From Kribbella caucasensis (GTDB lineage: Bacteria; Actinomycetota; Actinomycetes; Propionibacteriales; Kribbellaceae), in NCBI RefSeq assembly GCF_004361855.1, contig NZ_SNWQ01000001.1, positions 186,001 through 250,000 on the forward strand: 64,000 nt of DNA, given 5' to 3'. Positions 5,045 through 31,547 of the stretch are shown in pieces. A model generated the notes under the pieces. That model was given only the letters and a program-made list of their open reading frames with translations, was not told where the DNA came from and did no database searches. Every line of letters starts with the position of its first letter. Position 1 is the first letter of the stretch. Made by a program: the position numbers and the translations under genes.

Positions 5045-6067
5045 TCACCGCTGGATTCCGGCTGGTTCGCGGCCGGTGAGGTAGGCGGCGACGGCCTCGG
5101 CGGCGATCGAGGCGGCGCGGTGGGCTGTTTGCCGGGTGGCTCCGGCAAGATGGGGTGTCATGACGACATTCGGTGCCGTCAGCAGCCGTGAATCCTTCGG
5201 CACCGGCTCGGATTCGAAGACGTCGAAGGCCGCGGCCCCGAGCCGGCCGGACTCCAACGCGTCGATGGTTGCCTCGTAATCCAGCAGACCGCCGCGCGCT
5301 GTGTTCACCAGTACTGCGCCTTGCCGCATCCGCGCAAGCTGGTCCGCACCGATCATGCCGCGAGTGTCTTCGGTCAAGCGGGCATGCAGGCTGACCACAT
5401 CCGATCGGCGGAGTAGGTCGTCGAGCTCGACCACTTCAGCGCCGACCGGGAGCGACCTGGGATCGATCGCTGGATCGACCACGAGCACCCGCGCCCCGAA
5501 GGCGAGCATCACGCGGGCGACCCGGCTACCGATAGCGCCGTACCCGATCAGCCCGACCGTTGCCCCGTCCAGCTCCGACCCGCATTCGTCGTACGCGTAG
5601 AGGTCGCTCCGCCATTCACCCTGTTCGAGCGTGCGTTGCAGCTGTGGGAGTTTGCGCAGGGCACCCATCATCAGCGCGACCGCGTGTTCAGCCGCGGCAA
5701 TCGCGTTCCGGCCGGGCGTTGAAGCGACGGTGATCCCGCGTTTGGTTGCCGCAGGCACATTCACGTTCACCGGACCGCCGCGGCAGCAGACCAGGAAGCG
5801 CAGGTCCGGTGCGGCCTCCAGCACCCGCTCGGTGAAAGGCCCCATCTGCGTCACCGCGATCTCGACCCCGGGCAACGCCTCGATCAACTGGTCCTCCGCG
5901 TCACTCGCCTCGTCCACCTCCGCGACCCGCCCGTACGGCGTGAGCGGCCACGGCAACGTCACCGCGCGGAAGTCGAACGCCACGTCCGGCAGCCCGGACA
6001 ACGCGGTCGCGAGCGCCTCGTTCCGGACAAAGTGGTCGCCGGCCAGCAGAGCCTTGACGGTTCTCAT
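5045..6067 (-). CDS. D-isomer-specific 2-hydroxyacid dehydrogenase
   Basis: The 340-residue product has the split 2-hydroxyacid dehydrogenase fold. The NAD-binding site is GLIGYGAIGSRVAR (near residue 150). The catalytic arginine is in VNTARGGLLD, the glutamate in FDVFESEPVP and the histidine in TPHLAGATRQT. The family reduces 2-keto acids or oxidises 2-hydroxy acids, for example phosphoglycerate, glycerate or sugar acids. ATG 6067 has AGGAG 4 nt upstream. An in-frame ATG at 6127 would add 20 low-complexity residues derived from a duplicated junction (see the repeat at 6063-6227). It is the last gene of the DeoR/FGGY operon, so it probably works on the same sugar route. Confidence 0.85.
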   Translation of the reverse strand: MRTVKALLAGDHFVRNEALATALSGLPDVAFDFRAVTLPWPLTPYGRVAEVDEASDAEDQLIEALPGVEIAVTQMGPFTERVLEAAPDLRFLVCCRGGPVNVNVPAATKRGITVASTPGRNAIAAAEHAVALMMGALRKLPQLQRTLEQGEWRSDLYAYDECGSELDGATVGLIGYGAIGSRVARVMLAFGARVLVVDPAIDPRSLPVGAEVVELDDLLRRSDVVSLHARLTEDTRGMIGADQLARMRQGAVLVNTARGGLLDYEATIDALESGRLGAAAFDVFESEPVPKDSRLLTAPNVVMTPHLAGATRQTAHRAASIAAEAVAAYLTGREPAGIQR

Positions 6068-6227
6068 CGGACTCCTACGGTGCTCATCGAACTCCTGGGG
6101 GCGGGAGGCGGGTGCGGCCGATCTCATCGCGCTCCCGAGGGCGTTGAGTGGACGGGAGGCGGGTCGGCCCATCTCATCGAGCTCCTGAGGACGTCGAAGC
6201 GTGGACGGGAGCGGGATCGGCCCAGCG
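6063..6227 (-). repeat. Degenerate tandem repeat of a stop/SD/start junction
   Basis: Four tandem units each carry GGAG followed 4 nt later by CGATGA, read on the minus strand. Start codons fall at 6177, 6127, 6087 and 6067. The first overlaps the kinase stop (TGA 6176-6174). ATG 6177 opens a 17-codon frame ending at 6124, whose stop overlaps ATG 6127. ATG 6087 opens a 7-codon frame whose stop overlaps the dehydrogenase ATG 6067. The longer units also copy the last codons of the kinase (WADP.PVH..). The array looks like repeated duplication of a coupled gene junction. Confidence 0.75.
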
Positions 6228-27431: not shown

Positions 27432-29810
27432 GTGATCGGGATCGTGGTGGTGTCGCACAGCCGGGCGCTGGCGGACGCGGCGCTGGGGCTGGCGGCGGAG
27501 ATGGTTGCCGAGGACAACCGGCCGGTGATCGCCGTGGCGGCCGGGCTGGACGAGACGACCTTCGGAACCGACGCGGCGGCCGTGGCAGAGGCGATCGCTG
27601 CGGCCGACAGCCCGGACGGCGTACTCGTACTGCTCGACCTAGGCAGCGCGGTCCTGAGCGCGGAGCTGGCGCTGGAGTTCGTCGACCCGGAGATCGCCGA
27701 GCGGGTCGTGCTGTCGAGTGCTCCGCTGGTCGAGGGATTGGTCGCGGCCGTGGTCACCGCCTCGACCGGTGCGTCCTTGCAGGCCGTCGCCGACGAGGCC
27801 AAGCGCGGTCTACTCGGAAAACAAGACCATCTGGGCGATGTTCCGACGCCTTCGGCAACTGTTGCTACAGACAACGAGCAGAGTGTTGAAGTGTTGGTGA
27901 GCAACGAACATGGCCTGCATGCTCGACCTGCGGCGCGGTTGGTTGCCCTGGTCAACTCCTTCGATGCTTCGGTCACGCTGACGGATCTGGATACCGGCCG
28001 CGGTCCCATCGATGCAGGCAGCCTGAGCATGGTCGCCACCCTCAACGCCCAGCAGGGGCACCGCCTGCGAGTCGGCGCCAGCGGCCCTCAGGCCGACGAG
28101 GCTCTCGATGCGGTTCGTGTCCTTGCCGAGCAGGCCTTCGGCGATCTACCAGCCGGAGCCTTGCCGCAGCCTGTCCTGCGTGGCGGTTCGGGTCTTGACG
28201 TGGCGATAGGGCCGGCGATCGTGTGGGATACGGCGATCGATCTGAGCACCTACCAACGCGCCGACGCCGCCACGGAGGCCTCGAACTCGGAGACCGCCCG
28301 CACCGCCGCGATCGCCGAACTTGCCCAAGTGCAACGCGAGACGACAGCACGAGTCGGAGCGGCCGAGGCCGGGATCTTCGAGGCCCAGGCCGCGCTGCTC
28401 GCCGATCCGGCGCAACTCCGGGAGATCACCGCAGCCATCGACCGCGGAGCCAGTGCCCCAGAGGCCTGGAGTCAGACCCTCGACGACCTGGCCAAGACCG
28501 TCGAATCCCTCGACGACCCCTACCAGCGCGAGCGCGCCCAAGACGTCCGCAGCGTCCGTGACCGGGTACTACGCCTCCTCACCGGCACCGAATCCGCCGA
28601 ACCACCCGCGGACGGCGTCCTCGTAGTACGCGAACTCGACGCCGCGACAGCAGCAATCCTCGACGCCGAACGCATCGCCGGAATCGCCATCCGCGCAACG
28701 GGAACCACCGGCCACGGCGTCATCGTGGCCCGCTCCCGCGGCATCCCCCTGATCACCGGCATCGGCGATGTCCAGGTGCCGCTGGGTTCCGTCGTCGCCT
28801 TCGATGCGCGCGCCAACTCCTTCATGGTGGACCCCGACGAAGAAGCCTTCCGTACGACGATCCGCGAGCGCACGGCGGAACGCGAGCAGGCCCTGGCGAC
28901 CGCGGACCACCCGGCCGTCACCACCGACGGCCGAGTGGTCCCCGTCATGGCGAACGTCGGATCGGTCCAGGACGCCCGAGACGCGCGCGGAGCCGACGGA
29001 TCCGGCCTGGTACGGACGGAGGTGCTCTTCGGCGACCGGCGTACGGCTCCCACCACGGCCGAGCAGGCGGAGGTGTTCCGCAAGATCGCGGCCGCGTTCG
29101 AGGGGAAGCCGATCACGATCCGGACCTGGGACATCGGCGGGGACAAGCCGCTGCCGTTCCTCCCGCAGGCCGCCGAGGCGAACCCGTTCCTGGGTGAACG
29201 CGGACTCCGCGTCTTCCGCCATCGGCCCGAACTCCTCCGCGACCAGCTCCAAGCCGTCCGTGAAGTGGCACTGGAGACGCCGGTCCAGGTGATGTTCCCG
29301 ATGGTGACCACTGCCGAAGAGGTTGCCTGGGGCATCGAAATTCTGGACGCACTCGGCCCGCAGCCGGCCGGGTTGAAGGTGGGCATCATGGTCGAGGTCC
29401 CGGCCGCGGCGTTGCGGATCGACAGTCTGGCGCTGGGACTCGACTTCGTCAGCATCGGGACCAACGACCTGACCCAGTACACGACGGCCGCCGACCGCAC
29501 GAACACGGCGGTCGCCGCCCTCGCCGACGGGCTCGACCCCGCGGTTCTGCTACTGATCGATCATGTGGTCAGGCACGTCCCGACCGGTGTCCACGTAGCC
29601 GTCTGCGGCGACCTGGCCAGCGATCCGTCGGCGGCGGCGTTGCTGGTCGGTCTGGGGGTGCACGAGCTCAGCGCGGTCGGTCCACAGATCCCATTGGTGA
29701 AGGCCCGCATACGCCGGATCTCGTTCGAGTACGCCCGGCACACCGCCGCCGAAGCGCTGACTCAATCGAGCGCCGCGGACGTCCGGTACCTACTCGGCGC
29801 GGTTTCGTAG
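27432..29810 (+). CDS. dhaM: DhaM: EIIA(Dha)-HPr-complete enzyme I fusion
   Basis: The 792-residue product starts at GTG 27432 (residues VIGIVVVSHSR). His9 is the EIIA site. A linker of about 30 residues follows. HPr spans ~150-240 with His163 in NEHGLHARPA. Enzyme I spans ~255-792: His428 in TTGHGVIVARSRG, then RTEVLF, RTWDIGGDKPLPF, GERGLRVF, SIGTNDLTQY and Cys725 in CGDLASD. E. coli DhaM has only a shortened enzyme I part (~470 residues total), so this one carries the whole PEP-binding barrel. It should pass phosphate from PEP to DhaL-ADP unaided. Its 3' end overlaps the convergent cupin gene by 21 bp. Confidence 0.9.
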   Translation: MIGIVVVSHSRALADAALGLAAEMVAEDNRPVIAVAAGLDETTFGTDAAAVAEAIAAADSPDGVLVLLDLGSAVLSAELALEFVDPEIAERVVLSSAPLVEGLVAAVVTASTGASLQAVADEAKRGLLGKQDHLGDVPTPSATVATDNEQSVEVLVSNEHGLHARPAARLVALVNSFDASVTLTDLDTGRGPIDAGSLSMVATLNAQQGHRLRVGASGPQADEALDAVRVLAEQAFGDLPAGALPQPVLRGGSGLDVAIGPAIVWDTAIDLSTYQRADAATEASNSETARTAAIAELAQVQRETTARVGAAEAGIFEAQAALLADPAQLREITAAIDRGASAPEAWSQTLDDLAKTVESLDDPYQRERAQDVRSVRDRVLRLLTGTESAEPPADGVLVVRELDAATAAILDAERIAGIAIRATGTTGHGVIVARSRGIPLITGIGDVQVPLGSVVAFDARANSFMVDPDEEAFRTTIRERTAEREQALATADHPAVTTDGRVVPVMANVGSVQDARDARGADGSGLVRTEVLFGDRRTAPTTAEQAEVFRKIAAAFEGKPITIRTWDIGGDKPLPFLPQAAEANPFLGERGLRVFRHRPELLRDQLQAVREVALETPVQVMFPMVTTAEEVAWGIEILDALGPQPAGLKVGIMVEVPAAALRIDSLALGLDFVSIGTNDLTQYTTAADRTNTAVAALADGLDPAVLLLIDHVVRHVPTGVHVAVCGDLASDPSAAALLVGLGVHELSAVGPQIPLVKARIRRISFEYARHTAAEALTQSSAADVRYLLGAVS

Positions 29811-30461
29811 ATCCGCGTACAGCAGCTCGACGAGGTTGTAGCCGGACGTGCGAGTCGCTTTGGCCGGAAGCGTGTACGACTCACCGGGCTCGAGATAGGT
29901 GATGCCTTCGAGCGGCTCAGTGGCGAGATCAAGGTCGACGACCAGCGCCGGATAGGCACCGGTGCGCCACGTGTACGTCTCGTCGGCGTCGGGCGTGACA
30001 TGCGTGACCCGTACGTCGTCCTCGGCCAGCACCACCTTGGCCGGGATCTCGCCGACCTCGTCGAAACCACTGTCCGCCACGACGCCCTCGGGCGCGGCGT
30101 ACGGCTCGCCCGACGCCTCCTCGCCGAGGTCGAGAACCTCGATCAGGCGGTTCCGGTATGCCGCGTCGCCGTCGTTCGTGAGCATGTGAACCGGCGACAC
30201 CGGGCGATAGACCGAACCGCCGATGGTCTCGCTGAGCTGCCGCGCCGGACTCCCGTCGAGCCAGTCCATGTGACAGGGCGACGTGGACAGGCAGAGCACG
30301 ACGTACGGGTTGTGGTGCAGATGCCAGCCCTGCGCCTCACCCGGGTCGAGCGCGACCTCCCAGACCCGGACGCGGGTGTTCTCGAACACCACCCGGGTGC
30401 CGATCTCGCCGAGCACGACCTCGGTGCCGTCGGGGGCGAGCACGGTGGTCCCTGCGGTCAT
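29790..30461 (-). CDS. Bicupin protein
   Basis: The 223-residue product has two cupin halves. The first holds a metal-type motif (GWHLHHNPYVVLCLS, residues ~45-59, with a later HMLTN). The second (from ~135) keeps the fold (VRVTHVTPDADET, YLEPGESYTL) but has fewer histidines. Cupins serve as enzymes or sensors; the substrate is unknown. ATG 30461 overlaps the stop of an upstream minicistron (ATGA). It follows the broken GNAT gene on the same strand. Confidence 0.75.
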   Translation of the reverse strand: MTAGTTVLAPDGTEVVLGEIGTRVVFENTRVRVWEVALDPGEAQGWHLHHNPYVVLCLSTSPCHMDWLDGSPARQLSETIGGSVYRPVSPVHMLTNDGDAAYRNRLIEVLDLGEEASGEPYAAPEGVVADSGFDEVGEIPAKVVLAEDDVRVTHVTPDADETYTWRTGAYPALVVDLDLATEPLEGITYLEPGESYTLPAKATRTSGYNLVELLYADLRNRAE

Positions 30462-30529
30462 GGTTGGTCTCCGATCATGGCTGGGTGTCCGATCACGGTT
30501 GGTGTCCGATCACGATTGGTCTCCGGTCA
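30458..30529 (-). repeat. Tandem 17-18-bp repeat forming a chain of overlapping minicistrons
   Basis: Read on the minus strand, units of the form TCGGAcACCAACCgTGA are repeated four times between the GNAT stop (30529-30527) and the cupin ATG (30461). Start codons fall at 30513, 30496, 30478 and 30461, spaced 17, 18 and 17. GTG 30513 opens a 6-codon frame whose TGA overlaps GTG 30496. That frame (12 codons, with an in-frame ATG at 30478) ends in TGA overlapping the cupin ATG. The GGAGA in the outer units resembles a Shine-Dalgarno. The design matches termination-reinitiation coupling. Confidence 0.8.
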
Positions 30530-31061
30530 GTCGACGCTGCGTTCCATCGCGACCCCGCCCAGGACGACGCCGTCGGGCATGGTCAGCTCGGCCTGGTCCA
30601 CTTCCTTGAAACCGAAGGCCTGGTAGAGCGGGACGCCGGGCAGCGTCGCCATCAACGCGAGCGAGGTGAACCCTTCGGCCTTGGCAGCCGCGGCGCAGGT
30701 GTCGAGGATGGCCCGGCCGAGACCGCGCCGGGTCCAGTCGCCGCGGACGAACATCGCCCGGATCCGGGCCGGCTCCGTCGCCGGGTCGAGCAACCGGTCG
30801 TCGGCACCCGCGGTCGTACTGTTTGAAGAGCTTGTTCCGCCGGCTCCACCCGCCGCAGGCCACGATCTCCCCGTCGGCCTCATACACGTAGTACGTGCCG
30901 TCCTCGATCAGGGCGAGATCCAGTACGGCGATGTGCTCGGCAGCGCTCGCGGTCTGCTTCGCGTCGTAGTACGCCGGGAACAGCGCGAGCACCGAGTCCC
31001 GCATCAGTCCGGCGATCGCCGGCGCGTCCGACGCCACCGCAAGTCGTTGCTCAGCAGTCAC
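30527..31061 (-). pseudogene. GNAT-family N-acetyltransferase with internal frameshift
   Basis: The first part (GTG 31061 onward, about 85 residues) reads as a GNAT N-terminus up to ACGGWSRRNKLFKQY. It then leaves the family pattern, while the next frame from ~30810 continues it: LLDPATEPARIRAMFVRGDWTRRGLGRAILDT (acetyl-CoA loop), then AFGFKEVDQAEL and a stop at 30527. The shift lies near 30800-30815. One missing or extra base, either genuine or a sequence error, explains it. If the gene is intact in reality, it would be a ~178-residue acetyltransferase upstream of the cupin gene. Confidence 0.8.
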
Positions 31062-31075
31062 ATCTGCAGGTTAGT

Positions 31076-31408
31076 TCAGGCCCTTGGCGCGTACATGATC
31101 AGGCCTACACCGATGAGACAGACGACCGCGCCGGCCAGATCCCAGCGGTCCGGCCGGAACCCGTCCAGCACGACTCCCCAAAGCAACGACCCGGCCACGA
31201 ACACCCCGCCGTACGCCGCCAGAATGCGGCCGAAATGCGGATCGGGCTGCAACGTGGCGACGAACCCATAGGCGCCGAGGGCAAGAATCCCGCCGAGCAC
31301 CCACAACACCCCGCGATGCTCGCGAACCCCCTGCCAAACCAACCAGGCCCCACCAATCTCCGCCACCGCCGCAACCCCGAACAACCCCACAGACCGCAAC
31401 ACCGTCAT
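31076..31408 (-). CDS. YnfA/UPF0060-family membrane protein
   Basis: The 110-residue product has four predicted helices, with the family's start ([24 protein letters not shown]) and middle ([31 protein letters not shown]). The length is standard. The family is related to small multidrug-resistance exporters, but substrate evidence is limited. The longer open frame upstream has no family match, so ATG 31408 is the start. It lies 14 bp before the broken GNAT gene on the same strand. Confidence 0.85.
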
Positions 31409-31489
31409 ACGCCGCACGCTAGCCGCCCCGCCCCCAACACCCCCTCCGGACCCTACCTCGGCCTCCCAGGCGGGGGTGTGAACAAGAAC

Positions 31490-31547
31490 CGGGGACCCCG
31501 GACAGGAACAGGACGTGTCCGAGGTCCCCGGATCATGTCCGGGGTCC
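31490..31547 (-). terminator. Hairpin-forming region between DUF1707 and YnfA-like genes
   Basis: GGACCCCGGACA (31493-31504) is complementary to TGTCCGGGGTCC (31536-31547), and an alternative inner pair CGGGGACC/GGTCCCCG competes with it. No long T-run follows. Position suggests transcription termination or attenuation after the DUF1707 gene. Confidence 0.5.

Follow-up and report, generated by a model that had tools for sequence, protein, structure and literature searches.

Probable tandem duplication of a cupin translation-start region at an operon junction in Kribbella caucasensis

Introduction

Mycobacterial interspersed repetitive units (MIRUs) have a unit length of roughly 50–100 bp. They were reportedly described by Supply and colleagues in 1997. 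In the passages of PMC12548453 that deal with them, they appear as short and apparently mobile repeats that insert at start codons, and whose inner open reading frame (ORF) is coupled to the gene at −4 nt. A spacing of −4 to +3 nt is also given there as the one that couples best in most E. coli studies (PMC12548453).

A stretch of Kribbella caucasensis DNA of 64,000 nucleotides, analysed as a whole and hereafter called the window, carries a tandem array between a GNAT acetyltransferase gene and a cupin gene, in which tiny reading frames are chained by overlapping stop and start codons. The initial annotation, which described this chain, knew of no named element like it; minicistron relays nonetheless have a named precedent in the MIRUs, as passages of PMC12548453 present them. 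We propose here that the array is likely to be a lineage-specific, tolerated tandem duplication of the cupin translation-start region at an operon junction.

Results

Together with the TGA that overlaps the cupin start, the four start-region units of the array (17, 17, 18 and 17 bp) span positions 30458–30529 on the minus strand. The array begins at the native stop codon of the GNAT gene, and every unit is built alike: GGAG or GGAC, then 7 or 8 bases, then RTGA. Unit 1 (30513–30529, 17 bp) includes the native GNAT stop TGA, a GGAG site and the G of a GTG; units 2 (30496–30512, 17 bp) and 3 (30478–30495, 18 bp) carry GGAC; unit 4 (30461–30477, 17 bp) carries the GGAG site of the cupin gene. The anti-Shine–Dalgarno (anti-SD) duplex energies, computed with an assumed 16S tail sequence, are −6.9 kcal/mol for unit 1, −4.4 kcal/mol for each of the inner units and −7.8 kcal/mol for unit 4, the last value being equal to those of the four relatives at L007–L010. 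The ribosome site of the cupin gene, in the last unit, is intact, and the two inner copies are weakened.

Minicistron 1 (30493–30513, minus strand, six codons) opens on GTG 30513, 13 nt beyond the native GNAT stop, and ends with a TGA (30495–30493) that overlaps GTG 30496. Minicistron 2 (30458–30496, minus strand, 12 codons) opens on that GTG and ends with a TGA (30460–30458) that overlaps the cupin ATG at 30461. Both frames and their overlaps, the four 17–18-bp units with GGA(G/C) and a start codon between 30529 and 30461, and the arithmetic by which stop and start codons come to overlap when an RTGA unit recurs at 2 mod 3 had been put forward in the initial annotation, and all of them held when checked. 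Because unit 3 measures 18 bp, with one extra base, ATG 30478 falls in frame within minicistron 2; the chain therefore has two links, not four.

Tandem Repeats Finder gives the array a score of 86, with 4.2 copies and 83% matches. A score of at least 86 was reached in none of 100 first-order Markov sequences of 64 kb, for which the best was 81 overall and 70 for periods of 10–25. In 1.264 Mb of the same genome, a survey that includes the window, counts about 13 kb twice and may describe one array by several overlapping rows, 117 rows with a period of up to 60 score at least 80, and the period is not a multiple of three in 30 of these 117; arrays this strong are therefore not rare in the K. caucasensis genome. 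In a hand alignment, the units differ pairwise in 2 to 6 of 18 columns, with RTGA retained in all four. As RTGA is kept while the units differ, the array would be old enough for its copies to have diverged, with the chain still unbroken. There may thus be weak selection for keeping the chain, which would be a point against mere tolerance.

Upstream, the GNAT gene (30527–31061, minus strand) carries a one-base insertion, as seen by alignment to relatives. A run of A at 30822–30824 is one base longer than in each of the seven aligned relatives, and the frameshift noted in the initial annotation is indeed present in the assembly. The shifted frame extends over 183 codons from GTG 31061 and stops with TGA 30512–30510, which overlaps the GTG of minicistron 1, a detail that had been missed; −4 overlaps (ATGA or GTGA) are found at this entry point and at both minicistron links. 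G008, which does not have the insertion, also has a shifted open frame, of 196 codons, so that an open shifted frame is not special. Beyond the insertion, the differences in the GNAT gene remain biased towards third codon positions, and the insertion is therefore recent or an error. In this part of the gene, the window differs from four relatives by 9–15 and 10–14 changes at positions 1 and 2, and these four relatives differ among themselves by 5–11 and 4–9.

When units 1–3 are left out in silico, the stop of the shifted GNAT frame falls on the ATGA of the cupin gene itself. A single unit thus gives a direct −4 link; the array is therefore not needed for the link and adds two restarts. The relay had been suggested as the only translation link left after the frameshift, a claim contradicted both by this direct stop and by the GGAG site of the cupin gene, which is as strong as in L007–L010. 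The relay as a necessary compensation for the frameshift is ruled out, since one unit provides the same −4 link.

The cupin gene (29790–30461, minus strand) encodes a protein of 223 aa and has an ortholog in all 38 genus genomes. The protein matches the PDB cupin 9u8n (E = 7.3e-10); neither Pfam (to E 0.001) nor NCBIfam (to E 1) gave a match. Its differences from G024 number 14, 12 and 75 at the three codon positions, and the gene is therefore conserved. Elsewhere in the genus, two orthologs look broken, namely G007:C54:30785-31426, with one internal TGA, and G026:C4:415840-416547, with two overlapping matches. At L026 (G010), no GNAT gene was found directly upstream of the cupin gene, and the ribosome site is poor (−1.9).

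Our genus sample comprises 38 Kribbella genomes, one per species, and the cupin ortholog and its junction were read in all of them. The cupin start lies at −4 from the GNAT stop (ATGA) in 28 of the 38 and at +13 to +31 in six; two carry an 80-bp insert, one has no GNAT gene found upstream, and the array occurs in one, the window's genome. The 17-bp array is restricted to this genome, the junction being single-copy in 37 of 37 relatives, and the unit-pair pattern, searched with up to three mismatches across the 38 genomes, matches this locus alone. The initial annotation had proposed that copy number tunes cupin expression, and had named single-copy junctions in the relatives as evidence to the contrary; for the 17-bp array, such junctions are what all 37 relatives have.

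In a midpoint-rooted tree of 37 cupin sequences (G026, whose cupin is split, was left out), the window groups with G003, G008, G009, G024 and G031 with a support of 0.977. In all five of these relatives, the nearest to the window, the GNAT stop is separated from the cupin start by 13–31 nt that include one ribosome site. Four of them read stop, TCGGAG, a few bases and ATGA, i.e. one unit, and G031 has a different sequence. The GNAT stop and the cupin start of the window genome both read TGACCG; in the nearest single-copy relatives the GNAT stop reads TGATCG, one base off.

The 80-bp insert was found in G036 and G032 (L015 and L022), where it lies 80 bp before the cupin ATG and holds an ORF of 27 codons that opens on the GNAT stop and closes on the cupin start. 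This element has RTGA at both ends, a ribosome-site-like GCGAGGA of its own and a length of 2 mod 3. Its 3′ motif is present at up to two mismatches in 32 of the 38 genus genomes, with 0 to 32 occurrences per genome; at zero mismatches it was found in the window's genome alone among 148 genomes sampled from the class. We inspected 30 loci (L139–L168), provided for 128 listed places and drawn from four genomes: an in-frame RTGA lies exactly 80 nt before the terminal ATGA in 26 of them, at 77 and 71 nt in two, and is absent in two. An open frame of at least 80 codons follows the element in 29 of the 30 loci, and an upstream frame of at least 60 codons ends on its RTGA in 17, open frames being common in such G+C-rich DNA. 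The element may be called MIRU-like by its layout. A pair of these elements lies 80 bp apart at G015:C68:212035-212135. No Rfam match was obtained at gathering thresholds in L006, L015 and L022, and a literature search, in which some candidates were covered without their full texts, found no paper on the Kribbella 80-bp element.

The window contains a second start-region duplication (6064–6177, minus strand), between FGGY kinase and 2-hydroxyacid dehydrogenase genes, with SD and ATGA at 6177, 6127, 6087 and 6067. The end of the kinase gene falls on ATG 6177, that of a minicistron of 17 codons on ATG 6127 (50 bp) and that of a seven-codon frame from ATG 6087 on ATG 6067 (20 bp); the chain is interrupted between 6127 and 6087, a step of 40 bp. 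Since ATG 6127 shares its frame with 6067, both are candidate starts of the dehydrogenase. At L123:14817-14936 (minus strand) of the same genome, a 56-bp duplicated start region with a minicistron of 19 codons separates an amidohydrolase gene from a cupin-domain gene. From one RTGA start to the next, the three arrays advance by 17, 18, 17; 50, 40, 20; and 56 bp. Five of these seven steps are 2 mod 3, which is the spacing that keeps the hand-over, one is 0 and one is 1 mod 3.

Other repeats of this genome with this arithmetic were set aside. No convincing gene start, as judged from ORFs and GC3 only, lies at the end of the arrays of L102 (26 bp), L135 (20 bp) or L123:13024 (20 bp), and none lies at the end of the RTGA array of L118 (35 bp); in the L102 array (L102:5924-6056), all units contain GTGA and the end coincides with no clear start of a gene. 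Two weaker candidates chain by GTGA, with an unsure start: a 20-bp repeat at L243:14191, followed by a frame of 399 codons, and a 17-bp repeat at L238:11741, followed by a frame of 93 codons. In another species, L187 (G018:C1:245640-245723) holds three SD–ATGA copies, spaced by 38 and 32 bp, ahead of a frame of 317 codons; the copies are linked first at −4 and then by a single shared base (TGATG), and the first start does not coincide with the end of any gene frame. Units of 20 bp, TGTCCGAGGTCCCGG-like and GTGAACAAGAAG-like, form arrays at L124:11186-11725, L126:17583-17733, L135:19493-19605 and L123:13024-13066, with up to 8.4 copies, and apparently form one family; similar words are found at about 31475–31545 of the window.

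An exact search for double GGAG–ATGA yielded 37 matches across the 38 genomes. With each family taken a single time, there are 6, 5 and 5 for 2, 0 and 1 mod 3, respectively, two of the six families coming from one place, and hence no enrichment. A repeat survey of 2.45 Mb gave 2 versus 1 mod 3 ratios of 10:2 for RTGA and 24:28 for RTGC/G/T (one-sided Fisher 0.02), and of 6:0 versus 5:4 with ribosome-site and GC3 filters (P 0.09). The first half of the data suggested this mod-3 test, the comparison excludes 32 RTGA pairs at 0 mod 3, and some rows depend on one another, as a single L135 array supplies two of them and some sites stand under two anchors. This survey weakly supports a frame filter. 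We also counted 22 candidate gene/minicistron/gene chains with −4 at both ends in the 2.45 Mb, beside 114 direct −4 junctions, a raw count made with filters that the window's two arrays fail. Repeat identity is at least 0.7 in one of the 22, and minicistron chains without repeats are fairly common.

Discussion

The interpretation of the array as a tolerated duplication is supported by the single copy in the 37 relatives, the intact last site, the weakened inner sites and the similar duplications elsewhere in the genome. The array probably arose by slippage between the TGACCG at the GNAT stop and the TGACCG at the cupin start; such a seed is read from the present sequence, and the TGATCG of the nearest single-copy relatives would count against it. 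Each 17-bp copy with its RTGA (2 mod 3) would make a minicistron that stops exactly on the next start, and a ribosome could terminate and restart across these putatively translated minicistrons. The cupin gene would still be started from its own unit-4 site, plus some re-initiation from upstream. Given a preserved hand-over and an intact unit-4 site, we infer that the duplication was tolerated.

We may wonder whether SD–RTGA start-region duplication is a recurring process in Kribbella, filtered by frame in that spacings of 2 mod 3 preserve the hand-over, which would gather relay minicistrons (17, 20, 50 and 56 bp), be a possible source of the 80-bp elements and perhaps modulate re-initiation through copy number. 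We consider this unlikely, the more so because the second array has a 40-bp step, which is 1 mod 3.

It is unlikely that the array acts as a relay, passing ribosomes along the minicistrons by termination and restart, with cupin expression tuned by copy number. The −4 links do run unbroken from the shifted GNAT frame, by way of the two minicistrons, into the cupin gene, within the spacing range that passages of PMC12548453 report as coupling best in most E. coli studies, and two relatives bear a −4/−4 minicistron at the same junction. However, the array occurs in one of 38 genomes, two of its four ribosome sites are weakened, the 18-bp unit 3 leaves two links and not four, and one unit would couple as directly. 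Copy-number tuning of the cupin gene by the array would be possible but is unsupported, and there is no evidence for the array as a tuning device. What stands of the earlier interpretation is the stop/start chain and the period arithmetic; the sole link, the copy-number tuning and the lack of a named precedent are not supported.

Direct repeats of 17 bp could also bind a regulator, or the repeats could contain an internal promoter of the cupin gene. This is very unlikely: the array is absent from 37 of 37 relatives, and a search for the sigma-70-like consensus, which covers that promoter type only, found no promoter within 30300–31500, where shuffled sequences give 0.1. We regard an assembly or sequencing artefact as highly improbable for the array. 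The assembly is indeed a draft of 89 contigs, and the GNAT insertion, a single base in an A run with the gene beyond it still largely conserved, could itself be an error; the units, however, differ by substitutions and by one base of length, which would be unlike a repeat made by an assembler. Finally, it is scarcely credible that the array stems from a mobile MIRU-like element, degenerate or miniature, which landed at the start codon, even though 80-bp MIRU-like elements exist in the genus and at this very junction in two relatives, as the units resemble the relatives' local single-copy start region, show by eye no likeness to the 80-bp element, and form a unit-pair pattern that is found nowhere else in the 38 genomes.

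If the array is a tolerated duplication, minicistrons can be added at a coupled junction while the operon stays intact, a start region duplicated at a length of 2 mod 3 being able to hand the ribosome on. This would offer a simple and testable rule as to which repeats persist at junctions, and possibly a route towards MIRU-like elements. As regards the cupin gene, we see no sign of a new regulatory device, and the duplication looks harmless.

The array shares with classical −4 (ATGA) translational coupling the RTGA overlap at each link of the chain, and differs from it in that the genes do not overlap directly but are separated by two tiny cistrons. It also resembles the bicistronic designs, in which, according to passages of PMC12548453, a short upstream ORF that stops on the start of the real gene delivers the ribosome; the array, however, would have arisen by duplication, and its effect on expression is putative. 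With the Kribbella 80-bp element, it has in common the RTGA ends, a ribosome-site-like motif of its own, a length of 2 mod 3 and the same GNAT/cupin junction (G036 and G032), whereas that element is dispersed and 80 bp long. The units of the array, at 17–18 bp, also fall short of the roughly 50–100 bp of MIRU units. As in the MIRUs described in passages of PMC12548453, a short repeat occupies a gene's start codon and brings a small ORF at −4 nt, and, in layout alone, the stop of minicistron 2 overlaps the cupin ATG. In contrast to MIRUs, which the same passages present as dispersed and apparently mobile (PMC12548453), the array is a local 17-bp duplication, its unit-pair pattern being found at up to three mismatches at one locus in one of 38 genomes. 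The layout of the array thus works like a miniature MIRU junction, yet the array is not a MIRU, because it is not dispersed.
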